From: Halorubrum coriense DSM 10284
GTDB lineage: Archaea; Halobacteriota; Halobacteria; Halobacteriales; Haloferacaceae
NCBI RefSeq assembly: GCF_000337035.1
Contig: NZ_AOJL01000013.1
Coordinates: forward strand, 83,566-128,346
Length of the DNA: 44,781 nt
Direction: 5' to 3'
Positions 11,075 through 44,605 of this stretch are shown in pieces (position 1 is the stretch's first letter; every line of letters starts with the position of its first letter). A program made the translations under genes and the position numbers. The notes beneath the pieces are model-generated. The model had not been told where the DNA came from. It saw nothing but the letters and a program-made list of their open reading frames with translations, and searched no databases.

Positions 11075-12247
11075 TCAAAATAGAGACTCCAGTTCCCCAT
11101 CGCTATCCATCAAATCCGCAAAGCGGTCCGCGCTTTCGTCAGTGATTTCTCCACGATTCTGCTGTGCTTCGATTGCGACTTGCTGGAGCTCTTTCACTCG
11201 CGGAACGTTCGTTATGCCACCGAGTAGTACGAGTGCTGCGACCGTTCCCTCACCGCGTCGTGGGTAGTCACCACCACGGACCTCCATCGACCCGGTCTGA
11301 TCTTCGAGCCACTTACGACCATGCTCGACCCCCTTCCGATTCAGATACTCAGGCGGCCCGGCGATGACGAGCAATGCTCGCTCTGTTCCGTTCACCTCAC
11401 AGGGTAGAGTGAGGCGACCTAAGGTCGCCTTCCGAACGAGACTCGTTATTCGATTGGTGGCCTCTGTACTGTCAATCCCGTCATTCGAATCACCACGGAG
11501 TCGTGAGAGCAATCCACCCCGCTCTGCTTCCTCCACCTCGACGTCGGCGTACCCCAATGTCGAGATACCCCCGCCTTTGAGCGTATTAATTATCTCGGAC
11601 GAGTCGACCACGCTTTCGGCGACATCGCTTCCTTCTGTTATTTCACCAGCACTGAAGAGCACGCCGAACCGCTGGACTAACTCTTCGTTGATTGCGTCAA
11701 ACCCTTGCTCGACGGATTCACCGGAACTGCGCCAGGCGTCGTTGTCAAACAACATGAGGTTGTCAACCTCATCGACGAACGTCTTGAGCGATCGAGCAGC
11801 GTTCAGCGTGTAGATCCCACCCTCATCGCTGCCGGGCAGAATACCAAGTCCATATACTGGTTCGGTGTAGATCCGCTTGAGATTCTTCGCGATTACGGGC
11901 GCGCCACCCGATCCTGTCCCGCCTCCAAGTCCTGCGACGACGAGAAACGCATCAATCTCGTGGACCGGCACCGAGTCGAGTGCGCCTTGGATTTCATCGA
12001 GGTCTTCCTCGGCGATTTCTGCGCCCAACTCGTTATCCGCGCCCACACCGTGGCCTTTGACTCGTGATTGCCCGATTAGAATTCGACGGTCCGTCGGGAG
12101 GTTGTTGATCCCTTTGAGGTCTGCTTTTGCCGTGTTGACGGCGATCGCTCCCCGAACGATATCCGCGCCTGTTTGTGCGTCGTAATGTAGAAACTCGTCG
12201 ACTACCTTCCCACCTGCCTGTCCAACCCCAATTAATGCGAGTTTCAT
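11075..12247 (-). CDS. cetZ: CetZ-type tubulin/FtsZ-superfamily protein
   Basis: This 390-residue GTPase has the tubulin signature LGGGTGSGG (107-115), an N-terminal nucleotide loop IGVGQAGGKVVDEFL (6-20) and the archaeal NTAKADL element. CetZ proteins control haloarchaeal cell shape and rod formation for motility and are distinct from division FtsZ. ATG 12247 gives the family N-terminus MKLALIGVGQAGG, so the in-frame ATG at 12283 is rejected. The gene is monocistronic and convergent with padR (31 nt apart). Which CetZ subgroup it belongs to cannot be settled here. Confidence 0.9.
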   Translation of the reverse strand: MKLALIGVGQAGGKVVDEFLHYDAQTGADIVRGAIAVNTAKADLKGINNLPTDRRILIGQSRVKGHGVGADNELGAEIAEEDLDEIQGALDSVPVHEIDAFLVVAGLGGGTGSGGAPVIAKNLKRIYTEPVYGLGILPGSDEGGIYTLNAARSLKTFVDEVDNLMLFDNDAWRSSGESVEQGFDAINEELVQRFGVLFSAGEITEGSDVAESVVDSSEIINTLKGGGISTLGYADVEVEEAERGGLLSRLRGDSNDGIDSTEATNRITSLVRKATLGRLTLPCEVNGTERALLVIAGPPEYLNRKGVEHGRKWLEDQTGSMEVRGGDYPRRGEGTVAALVLLGGITNVPRVKELQQVAIEAQQNRGEITDESADRFADLMDSDGELESLF

Positions 12248-12590
12248 GAAAGCACACCACATGTCTCTACGCATGTCGGACAAATAAAGTTTGAATTCTT
12301 CTCAATCGTGAGATAGCCGAAATTGCTACTTGAGTACGTTAGTGTTTTAGCGTTCGTTGGGTGGTGATCTATTCTATCTCCCTAGTCAAGAGTCGAAATC
12401 TGAAGGACTAATCCTGACGCCTTCTGCTAAGTTAATAGGAGCAGACTTATTTACTGAAAGACATCACTCCACGTTGTGATTCGACGAGGTTTATCGACGC
12501 AATCACCAAGTCCCACCGATTATCATTGACTTGGACTAGCTGCCCACCGTATACGGACACGTTCCCGAGTTATCATCGAGACTTCAACCA
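12248..12590. other. Intergenic region between divergent genes
   Basis: No gene is seen in 343 bp separating cetZ and the membrane protein at 12591. It should hold both promoters. AGTTAATAGGAGCAGAC near 12430 and AATAAAGTTTG near 12285 are AT-rich candidates, but none is convincing. Confidence 0.4.
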
Positions 12591-32521: not shown

Positions 32522-34066
32522 CTAGCCATTGCTCATATCGTGCTCGTCATAGAACGCATCAAGCAGCTTTCGCTGACTTGCTCGAAGGTGGTGGAGTAGC
32601 GTTGATCCAGTGATTCCAAGTGACGTTGCTACCTCTTCAGCTGTGCTTCCACGCGGTGATGTGAAGTAATCCGCGAGATAGGCTGTTCGCAAGACCGTCG
32701 CCTGTCTATCAGTCAGTCGGTCGTTTAGCTCGTTTTGAAATTCTCGCTTCGTTGTCGGCGATCTTGTCTTATCTTGCCGTGCGAGAATAGGGGCTGGCCC
32801 ACTGTTCCCAAGGGCGTTTGCCAAACTGCGTACGTTCGCGTCTGGCGACAACTCCACGACTAAGCGACCCTCATTCCCGTTGAACCTTGCTGTCTGTATA
32901 TTGGCACCGCGATTGATCGCCACAACAAGCGGGACTGTCCCCTCGACAGTCAGTTGGATTCGACCGTGTGTTGCGTCTGTCTGTCGAATGACTCGTCCGT
33001 TCTGCGTTTCTGGCATGGCGGTAATAGTTTCGAGAACATCTTCTGGATTAGATCCGGAGACTGTCACGAAGCACTTGAGACCACTGTCGTCTGGGGTGAC
33101 GGTCCCACTAAGAGTAAGTTCAGCTTCGCTGTCTTTGCTTGCGCGTACTAGTGGCGAATTTTGATCAAGGCCGAACGTTACCTCAGTGACTGTGTCGGCA
33201 TACAGTAGTTTTCGGTTCTGTGTTGCGTTGATTGCGTATCCAGCAAGGTCTCCCAGTGTCTCAAAACTTGACTGGACATGATCACTAAAAGCGGCCTTTG
33301 TTCCAGCGTAGACACCAACAACACCGTAGACACTAGAGCCGTAAGCCAACGGAAGCGCAAAGACAGATTGGACGCCCTCCGCAAAGCCTGCAGCACGTAC
33401 AGTCTCTGGGACCGATTTGTTTTCACTTAGTGATTGAATCAACGTTGGAGACTGCTCGTCCACAGCCTGCTGTTCAGGGGTGGCACGTCCTTCCTCAATC
33501 GACTCACGAATCGCCGTGAACAGTTGTCCCCGCTCTCCTTCGACGCCACTGATAACCAACTCACCACTCTCGACAAGGTACTCTCCAGTCCATACAAACT
33601 GAAACTGGTCAGACGTCCCCAGCTGTTCTCGAATCGTCTCCATAATTGCATCCTGCGACGTGGCATCAACAAGCCCCTCGAGTACGTCTCCAATCAGCGA
33701 ATCAATGATCGTGGCTCGTTCAGAGTCCGCACGAAGTCGCTGGACCGTCTGCTGGGTGTTTTTCATTTCTGTCACATCATCCACGTAGATGGTCGTGGTC
33801 TCATCGTTTGGAACGATAGAAACAGATAGCCATTGGTCGATTGCTGGATAATACTCTTCAAATACCACATCCGCTACCGAGTTACCATTGAACGCGTTCG
33901 GGACTGACCGCTCGACTGACTGTGGGAACACGTCAACAATCGGCTTGCCAACTGGGGAATTAATTGGAAGAATATTGGACGCAGTCTCATTCACCGCACG
34001 TACGGTTCCCTCTTGAACGGTAATAACGCCGATTGGCGCTTCAGCAAGACGATGTTCCATTGTCAC
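32522..34066 (-). CDS. Bacterio-opsin-activator-like (Bat-type) regulator
   Basis: The 514-residue regulator has PAS (about 5-110, GVITVQEGTVRAVNETASNI), GAF (about 120-290, FALPLAYGSSVYGVVGVYAG), a Bat-type beta domain (about 295-430) and a C-terminal HTH_10 (LTDRQATVLRTAYLADYFTS, STAEEVATSLGITGSTLLHH). This order defines Bat, the oxygen/light-responsive activator of bacteriorhodopsin genes, but many haloarchaeal paralogues have other targets. It lies 3.3 kb from an opsin-homologue gene, so a regulatory link is possible but not shown. Confidence 0.88.
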   Translation of the reverse strand: MTMEHRLAEAPIGVITVQEGTVRAVNETASNILPINSPVGKPIVDVFPQSVERSVPNAFNGNSVADVVFEEYYPAIDQWLSVSIVPNDETTTIYVDDVTEMKNTQQTVQRLRADSERATIIDSLIGDVLEGLVDATSQDAIMETIREQLGTSDQFQFVWTGEYLVESGELVISGVEGERGQLFTAIRESIEEGRATPEQQAVDEQSPTLIQSLSENKSVPETVRAAGFAEGVQSVFALPLAYGSSVYGVVGVYAGTKAAFSDHVQSSFETLGDLAGYAINATQNRKLLYADTVTEVTFGLDQNSPLVRASKDSEAELTLSGTVTPDDSGLKCFVTVSGSNPEDVLETITAMPETQNGRVIRQTDATHGRIQLTVEGTVPLVVAINRGANIQTARFNGNEGRLVVELSPDANVRSLANALGNSGPAPILARQDKTRSPTTKREFQNELNDRLTDRQATVLRTAYLADYFTSPRGSTAEEVATSLGITGSTLLHHLRASQRKLLDAFYDEHDMSNG

Positions 34067-37170: not shown

Positions 37171-37238
37171 GGTGATCTCTTAGTTACCAGCGCCGGGTGG
37201 GGGGTCGGGGCGATCTCGTGAGGCGGTCAAACCGACCT

Positions 37239-37278
37239 GACGCTCTAGGCGTCCGGATGCGCTTGGCCACGACATCGA
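37239..37278 (+). repeat. 40-bp direct repeat A flanking the htr-opsin pair
   Basis: GACGCTCTAGGCGTCCGGAT and GCGCTTGGCCACGACATCGA together match 40120-40159 at 38 of 40 positions, in the same orientation and 2881 bp apart. The repeat lies just downstream of the opsin stop. On the minus strand both copies can encode DVVAKRIRT(P/S)RAS, so they may derive from one coding sequence. Confidence 0.85.
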
Positions 37279-37402: not shown

Positions 37403-38122
37403 TCAGTCGTCCGCGGTTACCTGTCCGGATGAAGTCGGTGTCTCTGGTATCGTCTCTCCGTCGTTGTCGACCAGCGCCCCAACGTTCTGGACGACGAGCG
37501 CAGCAAACCCAACGCGGTAGATGATATTGGTATATTGGAGGGTCGCTGTCAATGTGAACAAATCGAGGACTCCGGTCACCTCCAACTGCGACCACACGAC
37601 CAGCATCGCGAAGATGAACACCACGAGGTTCCGGGTCTTCGCGTACAAGAGTTCTTTCCGGGGCGGCTGGTTGGACGCTTTCTTGGCGATAGGCCCGTAC
37701 ATAAGCACAATTGCCACGAGATAGAAGGCTATGATCCCGAGATTCGCGACCGTCGCGATGATCCCGTCAAACACGGCTACGAGGTCGTATGAGATCCGGA
37801 CCGCCAGCAGAAGCCCCACGACCCCGCCGATGTACCGCCGTCCGGCCCCCGAGACGTAGACCGAGAACCCGAACAGCAACACGTAGGTCGGGTAGTCAGT
37901 CACCAACTGTGGGAGCCGCAAGACACCGCTCCCCACCGACACGAAACCGATGCCCGCACCCCACGCTGCCGCCATTACTGTTGCGAGCCCAATCAGGCCG
38001 AGGAACGGGTAGCAGTACCGGCGAGCGGCTTTCTCCTTCCGAAGCGTTAGGCCGGTCAGAACGATTGCTGAAACCGCGTAAACGGCCGCTGTTCCGTAGT
38101 GTATCGCTGTGGTGTCAATCAT
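37403..38122 (-). CDS. Sensory-rhodopsin homologue lacking the retinal-binding lysine
   Basis: The 239-residue seven-helix protein aligns with sensory rhodopsins along its length: helix [19 protein letters not shown], helix [19 protein letters not shown], helix [18 protein letters not shown], helix [16 protein letters not shown]. The Schiff-base lysine of helix G is Arg203. The helix G aspartate is Asn199, the helix C counterion is Gln72 (Arg69 and Pro78 kept), and helix F pocket residues Trp, Tyr, Pro, Trp are Phe171, Leu174, Val175, Ser178. Retinal attachment is therefore not expected. The start overlaps the transducer stop by 8 nt (ATGATTGA), the normal htr-sop order with translational coupling. 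Tyr197 matches the transducer-contacting tyrosine of sensory rhodopsin II. I infer a light-independent sensor. Confidence 0.85.
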
Positions 38123-39713
38123 CGTCAGTCACCCCCGTCCGGCGCGTCTTCGCCCCGGCCTGTGGCGTTTGTTCCGGTTCTACCGTCGTTGGCTCCGCAT
38201 CCACATCACGGGTTTCAAACTCACTCAGTCGCGCCTCAAGCTCGTGCGTCCGGTCCGTGAGGTCGGACGTGATCGCCTCAACTTCTTCCATCATCTCGGC
38301 CGCTTCCTCGGCCGACTCAGCAACGGTGCGGGCGTCAGAGACTACATTCTTCGCGCTCTCGGAGACCTCGTTCACGACGGCCGCCACTTCCTCGACGCCC
38401 GTCGCGCCTTCGGCCGTCGCGTCCGAAATGTCTCCCATCGCCGAATCGACTTCCTCAACGGTACTCGTCAGTTCGGCTATCGTCTCACCCGCCTCACGGG
38501 CCGACTGGGTCGTCTCGTCGATCTGCTCGACCGTCGCCTTCATGTCCGAGCTCACCTCGTCGACGTCGTCGATCGCGCTGGAAATCGTCTTGTCCACCTC
38601 CGCCGTCGACTGCTGGGTCTCCTCGGCAAGTTGCTTCACCTCCTCGGCGACGACCTCGAACCCGTCTCCCTCCTCGCCCGCTCGCGACGCCTCGATCGAA
38701 GCGTTCAGCGCAAGGATGTTCGTCTCCTCGGCGATCTCGGAGATGATCTCGGTCGTACTCCCGACCTCGTCCATCTGCGTATCGAGTCCGTGAATAACCT
38801 CCTCAAGCTCCTCTAACAGCTCCGCGATAGCGAGAATCGACTCGATCGCCTGTGTCGCCTTCGTCTCGCCTTCTTGACCAGCCTCAGCCGCTCGTGTCGC
38901 GTCGTTCGCTACGTCGTCCGTGGTCGACGCGATCTCCTCAATGAGCGCCGAGAAACTGTCTGTCTCTTTCACCGCTTGTTGGAGTTTTCCACTCTGCGCC
39001 TCAACCTGCTCTGCCAATTCCCGAATCTGCCCCGCGACGTATTGGTTCATTTCGCCGACCTGCCCGGCCTTCTCGGACACGTTCGTACTTGTCTCCTCGA
39101 CTTCGTCCGCGAAGTCGTGGAGTTCGCCGATCGTCACGGAGAGGTCGGTTGCCATCGCGTTGTATGCCTCCGCGATCTCACGCATCGCTTCTACGTCTGC
39201 GTCGGTACCGAGTTCCGTCGTAAAATCCCCGTCTGCCGCGGCTTCCATCGCACCCTCGACTGACTTCGCGTGCTCCATCAACGCTGCGTTCATCTCCTCA
39301 GCCTCTTGTTGTGCCTCCTCAGCGTCTTTCTGTGCCGACTCCGCCTCGCTCACTGCTTCATCAAGCGAGACTCGCATATCGTCGATGCTGGCGAACAGGT
39401 TACCAATCTCGTCGCTCCTGTCTGACTTCGCCGTGGTCTGAAAATCACCGTCCTCGATCGCGCTCGCGACCGTCAGCAACCGAGAGAGTTCTGTCCCGAC
39501 ATTGTCACCGACCATGATTCCGACAACCCCGAAATTCAGTAGCATCACGAAGGCCGTCGCAGCGACCGCAGCGACTCCTGCATCCACAGTGCCGGCCGAC
39601 TGTAGGTGCTGGACGAACAACGCGGAAAGCCCAATCGTCAGTAAGATTGTCCCCGCTACAATCCCCCGAAGCCGGCGACCATAGCTACCTTCCACCGCCT
39701 CGATTAGCCCCAT
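38115..39713 (-). CDS. htr: Methyl-accepting transducer partner of the opsin homologue
   Basis: From ATG 39713 the 532-residue transducer has two membrane helices (about 17-36 and 48-72) with only a short outer loop, as in sensory rhodopsin transducers rather than ligand-binding receptors. HAMP (about 73-125, [20 protein letters not shown]) and a second HAMP-like segment follow, then a long coiled coil with the conserved tip [20 protein letters not shown]. Glu/Gln-rich methylation helices flank it. Asn60 in helix 2 ([10 protein letters not shown]) matches the asparagine that hydrogen-bonds the rhodopsin tyrosine in the SRII-HtrII complex. It should signal to CheA. GTG 39728 is an alternative start. 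Confidence 0.92.
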
Positions 39714-39754
39714 ACATTTTTCTCCCACTACGGTAGGTAAACCCCGGCGACCTA

Positions 39755-39768
39755 ATTATTTTTATTGA
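39755..39768 (-). promoter_or_regulatory. TATA box for the htr-opsin operon
   Basis: On the minus strand TATCAATAAAAATAATT lies about 45-55 nt before ATG 39713 and 30-40 nt before GTG 39728, an AT-rich island in GC-rich surroundings. It is the probable single promoter for both genes. Confidence 0.45.
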
Positions 39769-40214
39769 TAACAACGCGCCCCACGCGGCCACTAACGCCA
39801 CCGAATAGAGACACCCAACGACTCCTCGACCTACCACCTTCTGTTCTTGACGCTACTCACGTTTGAGAGTGGTTTCACCGACTCGCCGTACTCCGGGTTT
39901 GGGCGTCCTGCCACTGCTAAGTCTTGTCCGGTTCTTGTTCGCATAGTGGCATTTGATTTCTTAGCTGGAGATGGTATCTGTCAATTCGGACGAGTACCGG
40001 GATGGAAGTCGCAGATACTGAAAGCACACCGGACATTTCTGAAGACCGACCAGCCGCCCCGTAGCGACTCATTCTCGAAGAGGTTGCCGCCGCTGGCGAA
40101 CTGTGCGTCGAAGCGGACCGACGCTCTAGACGTCCGGATGCGCTTTGCCACGACATCGAGTGGAATATAGTATTCTCTTGAAGGAATCCCTGTGAATCAG
40201 ATGTTGAGGTCACG
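39769..40214. other. Intergenic region upstream of htr
   Basis: No intact gene is seen. On the minus strand 40159-40070 can be read as DVVAKRIRTSRASVRFDAQF, ASGGNLFENES, a protein-like stretch sharing its start with repeat A, so it may be the remnant of a gene split by the htr-opsin segment. Confidence 0.35.
40120..40159 (+). repeat. 40-bp direct repeat B flanking the htr-opsin pair
   Basis: This matches repeat A (37239-37278) at 38 of 40 positions and in the same orientation. It lies on the far side of the htr promoter, so the two copies bracket the complete transducer-opsin operon. Confidence 0.85.
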
Positions 40215-43363: not shown

Positions 43364-44605
43364 ATGAAGATTGAGGTTAACGCGCTTGGGCAGTTTAACC
43401 AACTTGCTCATGACGGGTCGAAACAGGCTGCGCGATCACTTGGCCAACTGACTAACGTCCAGCCGACAGTTGAAGCGACAAGCATTGACCTCCTTCGGCG
43501 TCGAGATATCGTTGCGGATCTTCACAATCAGGAACTTGTCGGTATTTCCAGTGACTTCTCTGGCGGGATTGCTGGAACAGCACTACTTATTTTCAACATG
43601 ACTGGCGCAAAGACACTCGCAAAGAGTCTCCCCGGTAATAAAGGTGGAGAGATCGGGCTTGAACCCCGACTCACCGAAGTCGGAAACATCATGCTGAGTG
43701 GATTCATCGACGGCTGGGCAGACTACCTCAACCAGTCCATCGATCAGCGTCCACCAACCTACCTCACTGGAGATGGAGCAGATGTTATCCCAGATGCGTT
43801 ACCGCTCAATGAGACTTCAAATCAGGTATTGACCATAAATAGCACATTTGAAACGACAAACGCCGTAGTTGAGACGACAGCGTATATTTTTCTCCAGGAG
43901 GCGTCGTTCAAGCGTATTCTTGATAATCAACTCTCTAGTGAGTCGACCCCGATCCCGCTCGACAAACTCCAAGCATTCAGCCAAATGGCTGCGAAAGGTG
44001 GCGACACCGCAGGCGATAATATTACGACGATGACTGGCATCGAGACAACGGTCACGATTAGCCGCATGAGCTTTCTCCCCATTGAACAGATCGGGCCACG
44101 ACTTGGTGATGAACAACACGTTGGTGTGGTTGCCGAACTGACTGGCTTACCAACCGGATATATTCTCATCCTCTTCGATGAAGCCTCTGGTGAAACAATT
44201 GCGGAGGCGATGGGTACCGGCGAGGTTACCGATGGATTCGAAGAGCTACACAAAAGCGCAATTGAGGAGATTGGGAATATTATGATCAGTGGATTCGTTG
44301 ATGGCTGGGCCAATGTGCTTAGCACATCGAACCAGCACACTCCTCCGGAGTTCGTTCACGATTTTGCGTCGGCTATTGTTGACCCAATAATGCTTGATTT
44401 TGCGACAACACAAGAGTATGTGTTTGGATTCGATACGCTTATTCAAACGACATCAGAACCCGTGCAATGTCAGATTCTCGCGCTCCCGAGAGCTGAGGAG
44501 CTCAAACAGGCACTTGATGAACTATCGATTAGTGAACTGTCTGCCGATGTTGAGGCCAAAATGAAAGCTGACCCCAAGTCATTATTCGACAACCACGCCG
44601 AGTAG
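43364..44605 (+). CDS. cheC: CheC-family chemotaxis phosphatase, double-domain
   Basis: The 413-residue protein contains two CheC phosphatase helices with the full consensus ExxNx22P: Glu105-Asn108-Pro131 (LTEVGNIMLSGFIDGWAD) and Glu302-Asn305-Pro328 (EEIGNIMISGFVDGWAN). CheC dephosphorylates CheY-P and, in archaea, links to the archaellum motor through CheF. Long CheC proteins with two such units are known in haloarchaea (CheC2 type). No other che genes are in the window, so it is an accessory copy. It may be co-transcribed with the gene 28 nt upstream. It lies 3.6 kb from the htr-opsin operon. Confidence 0.9.
   Translation: MKIEVNALGQFNQLAHDGSKQAARSLGQLTNVQPTVEATSIDLLRRRDIVADLHNQELVGISSDFSGGIAGTALLIFNMTGAKTLAKSLPGNKGGEIGLEPRLTEVGNIMLSGFIDGWADYLNQSIDQRPPTYLTGDGADVIPDALPLNETSNQVLTINSTFETTNAVVETTAYIFLQEASFKRILDNQLSSESTPIPLDKLQAFSQMAAKGGDTAGDNITTMTGIETTVTISRMSFLPIEQIGPRLGDEQHVGVVAELTGLPTGYILILFDEASGETIAEAMGTGEVTDGFEELHKSAIEEIGNIMISGFVDGWANVLSTSNQHTPPEFVHDFASAIVDPIMLDFATTQEYVFGFDTLIQTTSEPVQCQILALPRAEELKQALDELSISELSADVEAKMKADPKSLFDNHAE

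Follow-up and report, generated by a model that had tools for sequence, protein, structure and literature searches.

The gene at positions 37403-38122 (minus strand) of the window, ie the whole 44,781-nt stretch of Halorubrum coriense DSM 10284 DNA analysed here, is real and intact, and belongs as a divergent member to an already published class of opsins that are retinal-less and coupled to a transducer. It encodes a group A opsin-related protein (ORP) of 239 amino acids, with Arg203, Asp76 and Thr75. The original prediction, made from the DNA alone, was that a former photoreceptor had become a light-independent membrane sensor signalling through the chemotaxis pathway, with a lipid, ligand or voltage as purely conjectural stimuli. 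A retinal-free sensor coupled to a transducer is the best supported reading, and it is well supported, because the retinal lysine and the light-trigger residues are gone, the output interface and the transducer are kept, and the family is under purifying selection. It is not a new reading, having been published by Becker et al. in 2016 (PMC4915679), so that both the finding and the inference drawn from it amount to an independent rediscovery. Among type 1 rhodopsins, lysine-less opsins of this kind correspond to those GPCRs whose stimulus is something other than light. The class has been known since 2016; new here are a deep-branching second copy in one genome, directly comparable with the ordinary paralogue on contig C9, and a proposed, testable charge-pair rule from a comparison of about 80 ORPs, namely that where position 203 is charged, an acid is found at 75 or 76.

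The 239-codon frame has no internal stop and is intact, as first read. Among PDB sequences the top phmmer match of its product is sensory rhodopsin II of Natronomonas pharaonis (NpSRII, E = 3e-9); a profile search with the ORP family gives E = 6e-19, and profile-profile comparison with canonical haloarchaeal sensory rhodopsins (SRs) gives E = 4e-18. Structure prediction of the protein alone, one of the checks proposed at the outset, yielded a confident seven-helix AlphaFold2 model from 19 sequences (mean pLDDT 89.7, pTM 0.81), whose top Foldseek matches are SRII chains of SRII-HtrII complexes (1h2s_A, TM 0.81/0.85). The protein is therefore a seven-helix sensory rhodopsin homologue as predicted, but the description of the alignment as end to end was slightly generous: phmmer aligns residues 32-232 only, and the structural match, over 225 alignment columns, covers nearly the whole seven-helix part. 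The Pfam model Bac_rhodopsin (PF01036) gave no match to the window ORP at E ≤ 1, so that its curated cut-off was not reached, and it matches just 2 of 19 group A members at all. Three plasmid records (NZ_CP081960.1, NZ_CP119990.1 and NZ_CP096660.1) contain lysine-less ORP homologues labelled 'bacteriorhodopsin'. Such labels, together with the misses of the Pfam opsin model, lead to both over- and under-counting of photoreceptors.

Residues were assigned with a MAFFT alignment to haloarchaeal opsins, among them four encoded by the same genome, with a larger alignment, and by profile-profile comparison with canonical SRs. All three place Arg203 at the position of the Schiff-base lysine, in agreement with the original prediction. 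A lysine that might take over that position was looked for, and helix G contains none, the only lysines of the protein being residues 29, 31, 147, 148, 156 and 162; the helix G retinal lysine of canonical SRI and SRII is thus absent. The counterion in helix C had been given as Gln72, which was an error: Gln72 aligns with Arg72 of NpSRII (Arg82 of bacteriorhodopsin), the counterion position (NpSRII Asp75) is occupied by Thr75, and Gln72 was accordingly rejected for that role. The retinal-contacting Trp76 of NpSRII is replaced by Asp76. In the helix F pocket W171, Y174, P175 and W178 of NpSRII become F171, L174, V175 and S178, the same Phe, Leu, Val and Ser that had been read from the translation, with the qualification that a gap in helix F displaces the last of them (178) by one in the profile-profile and phmmer alignments. 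The predicted Asn199 does stand at the position of the helix G aspartate (NpSRII Asp201), and it is peculiar to the window copy, as all 25 other Halorubrum homologues have Asp there. Tyr202, at the position of NpSRII Thr204, is likewise unique among the Halorubrum copies.

The marks of SRII, Asp75, Arg72 and the Tyr174-Thr204 pair, are consequently represented by Thr75, Gln72, Leu174 and Tyr202. Both marks of group A, Trp76 to Asp and Tyr174 to Leu, are present, and the transducer contacts Tyr199 and Asp189 of NpSRII are kept as Tyr197 and Asp187. Three pocket residues which are typical of group A without defining it (Met108, Thr/Ser127 and Ala178) are Val108, Asn127 and Ser178 in the window ORP; these positions vary among other members of the clade too. 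At the former retinal site Gln72, Asp76, Tyr80, Tyr112 and Arg203 are invariant or nearly so in the family.

Immediately upstream of the ORP gene lies that of its cognate Htr-type transducer (38115..39728, minus strand), which encodes two TM helices with a short extracellular loop, a HAMP domain (6.5e-7) and an MCP signalling domain (MCPsignal, 1.6e-35); homologues suggest a start at Met6 (39713). The transducer stop and the ORP start overlap by 8 nt, ATGATTGA (38115..38122, minus strand), in a two-gene operon, and the coupling to an intact transducer was therefore correctly called. The same -8 overlap is found in 24 of the 53 relatives having an upstream transducer. Of the 62 group A genes, at least 53 are directly preceded by an MCP gene, this being a lower bound as some loci are short or have over-extended start calls. 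A candidate AT-rich TATA element for the operon can be read at 39752..39768 (minus strand), about 40-55 nt upstream of the Met6 start. The TM2-HAMP part of the transducer matches NpHtrII at E = 2e-17, and the Asn/Gly motif of TM2 aligns with NLGLVAATLG of NpHtrII, which we take to be Asn74 to Gly83, with an Asn at the position of Asn74; in some distant relatives this Asn is replaced by His. In the SRII-HtrII complex, Tyr199-Asn74 is a hydrogen bond of the interface and Tyr174-Thr204 is the light trigger (PMC3274258). Judged by sequence comparison, the Tyr199-Asn74 mark of Htr coupling is present in the window pair as Tyr197 and the aligned TM2 Asn. Since these two are kept and the Tyr174-Thr204 pair is gone, the output side has been kept and the light-input side dismantled.

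Relatives were gathered from 52 genomes of the genus, 392 genomes of the order and a number of named genomes; the latter include Halorubrum ezzemoulense, trapanicum, distributum, xinjiangense, sodomense, californiense and others, with more distant relatives in Halovenus. The proposed search for homologues with a residue other than lysine at the helix G site gave 80 ORP rows, and in a quick tree that excluded positions 75, 76 and 203 they form one clade, ie one side of a branch with SH-aLRT 100. The ORPs are closest to sensory rhodopsins in this tree. They comprise a group A superclade of 62 rows (SH-aLRT 99), group B with 11 rows (SH-aLRT 99) and a third set of 7 rows (SH-aLRT 91), four of which have Asp75, Tyr76 and Arg203. 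The window ORP falls in the group A clade with the Halorubrum ORPs (26 rows, SH-aLRT 97), as sister to the other 25, on a long branch (1.17) and at 39-50% identity to them. No closer orthologue, ie above 50% identity, was present among the 52 genomes of the genus, 25 of which contain ORPs. The host genome also has an ordinary Halorubrum ORP, the copy on contig C9 (L035), and the pair in the window is its second ORP with a transducer. Relatives from group A extend to several further families of the order, a wider spread than in 2016, when the set was mainly Halorubrum. A scan of viral contigs for the window ORP gave 15 pattern matches, none of them a relative, and tblastn against plasmids found only relatives of 30-36% identity, in Halobaculum and Halorussus. 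A separate ORP subgroup outside group A (L145, L150, L151 and L026) has Asp75, Tyr76, Arg72 and Arg203 and an MCP gene upstream of each member; in this second lineage, too, Arg has taken the lysine site, but the original counterion is retained.

From a survey of 80 haloarchaeal genomes Becker et al. reported 48 ORPs lacking the lysine (PMC4915679). Their group A, mainly from Halorubrum, has Arg at the lysine site, Trp76 changed to Asp and Tyr174 to Leu, with Tyr199 and Asp189 kept, and 15 of the 16 members adjoin a HAMP/MCP transducer; Met108, Thr/Ser127 and Ala178 are given as group patterns, 127 for 'most ORPs' (PMC4915679). In the same study transcription was seen for 8 of 9 ORPs tested, LC-MS/MS found no native ORP protein, and the purified group A ORP of Halorubrum distributum formed no pigment with retinal and had no absorption at 480-580 nm; a role in non-light taxis was proposed (PMC4915679). 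The ORP of H. distributum JCM 10118 (L067) is 45% identical to the window ORP.

The window ORP resembles group A in the Lys to Arg, Trp76 to Asp and Tyr174 to Leu changes, the Tyr199 and Asp189 equivalents, the adjacent transducer, the Halorubrum-type host and its clade. It differs from the other Halorubrum members in its low identity to them, in having Val108 rather than Met, Asn127 rather than Thr/Ser and Ser178 rather than Ala, and in being the second ORP of its genome, on a contig of low G+C. With NpSRII-HtrII the pair has in common the fold, the Htr operon, the helix G Tyr and the TM2 Asn-Gly motif, but the ORP is without the retinal lysine, the Asp75 counterion, Arg72, the Tyr174-Thr204 pair and the pocket aromatics. 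Group B ORPs (Natrialba and relatives) belong to the same ORP clade, have also lost the lysine and are sometimes MCP-linked; unlike the window ORP they have Gly75 and Leu, Phe or Val at 203, ie both charges are lost, and they keep Arg72 and Tyr51. Betaproteobacterial Rh-noK, lysine-less freshwater FArhodopsins and fungal ORPs are also type 1 relatives lacking the lysine (PMC10308929; PMC4915679). They were published as separate losses, and are set apart here by description rather than by the tree; the bacterial lysine-less opsins have a proton pump or flotillin as neighbours, and no transducer.

Selection was assessed, as had been proposed, from pairwise dN/dS (NG86) among homologues of more than 70% identity with dS of 0.05-1.2; the 216 pairs are mostly group A, the relatives of the window copy being at most 50% identical to it. 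The median was 0.34, with values at or below 0.5 throughout, indicating purifying selection, and 11 canonical SR pairs in the same list had a median of 0.24. Across the 26 Halorubrum copies the codon for Arg203 varies only synonymously (CGG in 15, CGC in 9 and CGT in 2) and that for Asp76 is always GAC or GAT. Decayed ORP copies nevertheless occur in at least three genomes. Because these exist and about half of the Halorubrum genomes have no ORP (25 of 52 do), the function is dispensable. A 97-amino-acid frame at L083:3926-4219 (the same gene as L025:1435-1728) joins the transducer N-terminus (TM1) to ORP helices F-G, and is the in-frame product of a deletion across the operon. Halorubrum californiense has an internally deleted ORP of 101 amino acids (L074:6550-6855, also L036:8039-8344) beside an intact copy, and a frame-broken copy is found in another genome of the genus (G303, L111/L152). 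L131 was considered as a pseudogene, an idea rejected on inspection of its coordinates, which show that the stop reported for it marks the natural C-terminus.

We consider it probable that this group A ORP and its own Htr-type transducer are together a light-independent membrane receptor, descended from a sensory rhodopsin, which does not bind retinal and feeds the CheA/archaellum pathway. The emptied retinal site would form a polar, charged pocket on a buried Arg203-Asp76 pair. A stimulus that perturbed this pair or filled the pocket (a small solute, a proton or the membrane state) could then shift helices F and G, and the Tyr197-Asn contact would relay the shift to TM2, and from there to HAMP and CheA, as happens in SRII-HtrII. 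That the ORP senses nothing, and serves as a structural partner which stabilises the transducer or sets its basal activity while the transducer perhaps senses membrane state or cytoplasmic cues, seems unlikely to us. Conservation of the output interface when every SRII input residue is altered would fit such a role, as would the better conservation of the transducer (53-54%, compared to 43% for the ORP, to the same relatives), but the near or complete invariance of Gln72, Asp76, Tyr80, Tyr112 and Arg203 goes beyond the needs of a scaffold, and the group A pocket is systematically unlike that of group B.

The absence of a lysine from helix G and the replacement of Trp76, Trp171, Tyr174, Pro175 and Trp178 make it quite improbable that the ORP is still a light sensor, using retinal non-covalently or some other carotenoid-derived pigment. 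The genome does make retinal (two Brp/Blh genes), and an alternate chromophore was left possible by Becker et al., but their group A relative had no retinal absorption and some ORP-bearing species are without crtY and brp (PMC4915679). Very unlikely, in our estimate, is a former photoreceptor now decaying under relaxed selection. The long branch of the window copy, its changes at 20 otherwise invariant columns (including Asp199Asn) and the truncated or frameshifted ORPs of relatives are what decay would produce; against this, an intact frame of 239 codons has a chance of about 3e-4 if fully randomised at its own G+C, the copy keeps 55 of the 75 columns invariant in the other 25 compared to 51 of 147 variable ones, Arg203 and Asp76 are kept, the transducer is intact and the seven-helix model is confident.

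For the favoured reading, a retinal-free receptor, the residues at 75, 76 and 203 are of particular interest. Arg203 is present in 61 of 62 group A rows, and in 60 of these 61 an acid, Asp or Glu, occupies 75 or 76, the exception being L131 (Asn75, Asn76, Arg203). The sole group A row without Arg (L136, Ser203) has no acid at 75/76. Group B has Gly75 and a hydrophobic residue at 203 in 10 of 11 rows and in all sampled kin, ORP rows with Thr, His or Val203 have no acid at 75/76, and the Arg203 rows of the third group have Asp75. All 15 ORPs with a neutral residue or His at 203 lack the acid, and 79 of 80 ORPs fit the rule. On the tree the covariation amounts to only two or three independent contrasts, all in the expected direction and without statistical weight, and the Fisher p of 2e-15 ignores kinship and was not relied on. 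The pattern suggests that a buried Arg203-Asp pair may replace the Schiff base-counterion pair in group A ORPs. The words 'counterion' and 'salt bridge' are absent from the main text of PMC4915679, where the Trp76 to Asp change is treated merely as a lost aromatic; the rule is put forward as a hypothesis of the present analysis. More tentatively, group A may have retained the electrostatics of the active site and dropped the pigment, with Arg acting as the protonated Schiff base and Asp, shifted from 75 to 76, as the counterion. The receptor would then be switched when a ligand, a proton or the membrane voltage breaks the buried ion pair, the same event as is caused by light in SRII, and group B, in which both charges were lost together, would have to work differently.

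The host genome has BR- and HR-type opsins, a canonical SR-transducer pair, two Brp/Blh genes, archaellins and about 17 MCPs, so that retinal and the machinery of taxis are available; given the SR-transducer pair and the Brp/Blh genes, the ORP does not take the place of phototaxis in a cell without retinal. The operon has a G+C content of 59-60%, compared to 53% for the window and up to 69-71% in other parts of the genome that carry opsins. On either side of the operon lies one copy of an imperfect direct repeat of 53 nt (left copy 37226..37278, right copy 40107..40159; 87% identical over 53 nt and 93% over 45), with no further copy elsewhere in the genome. Acquisition of the ORP-transducer pair as a transferred two-gene cassette is plausible. 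Another opsin of the same genome (L004:1462-2115, G000 contig C62) retains the lysine and has Arg72 changed to His, the counterion to Glu, Thr79 to Gly and Trp171 to Gly. On the same low-G+C contig as the operon there is a CetZ tubulin-like gene (window 11075-12283), and downstream of the ORP, at a distance of about 3 kb, lies a gene for a Bat-type regulator (GAF, BAT and HTH_10; window 32522-34066). The name Bat recalls the bacterio-opsin activator, but this set of domains is widespread in haloarchaea. A gene for a CheC/CheX-like chemotaxis phosphatase (window 43364-44605) is found about 4 kb from the operon.
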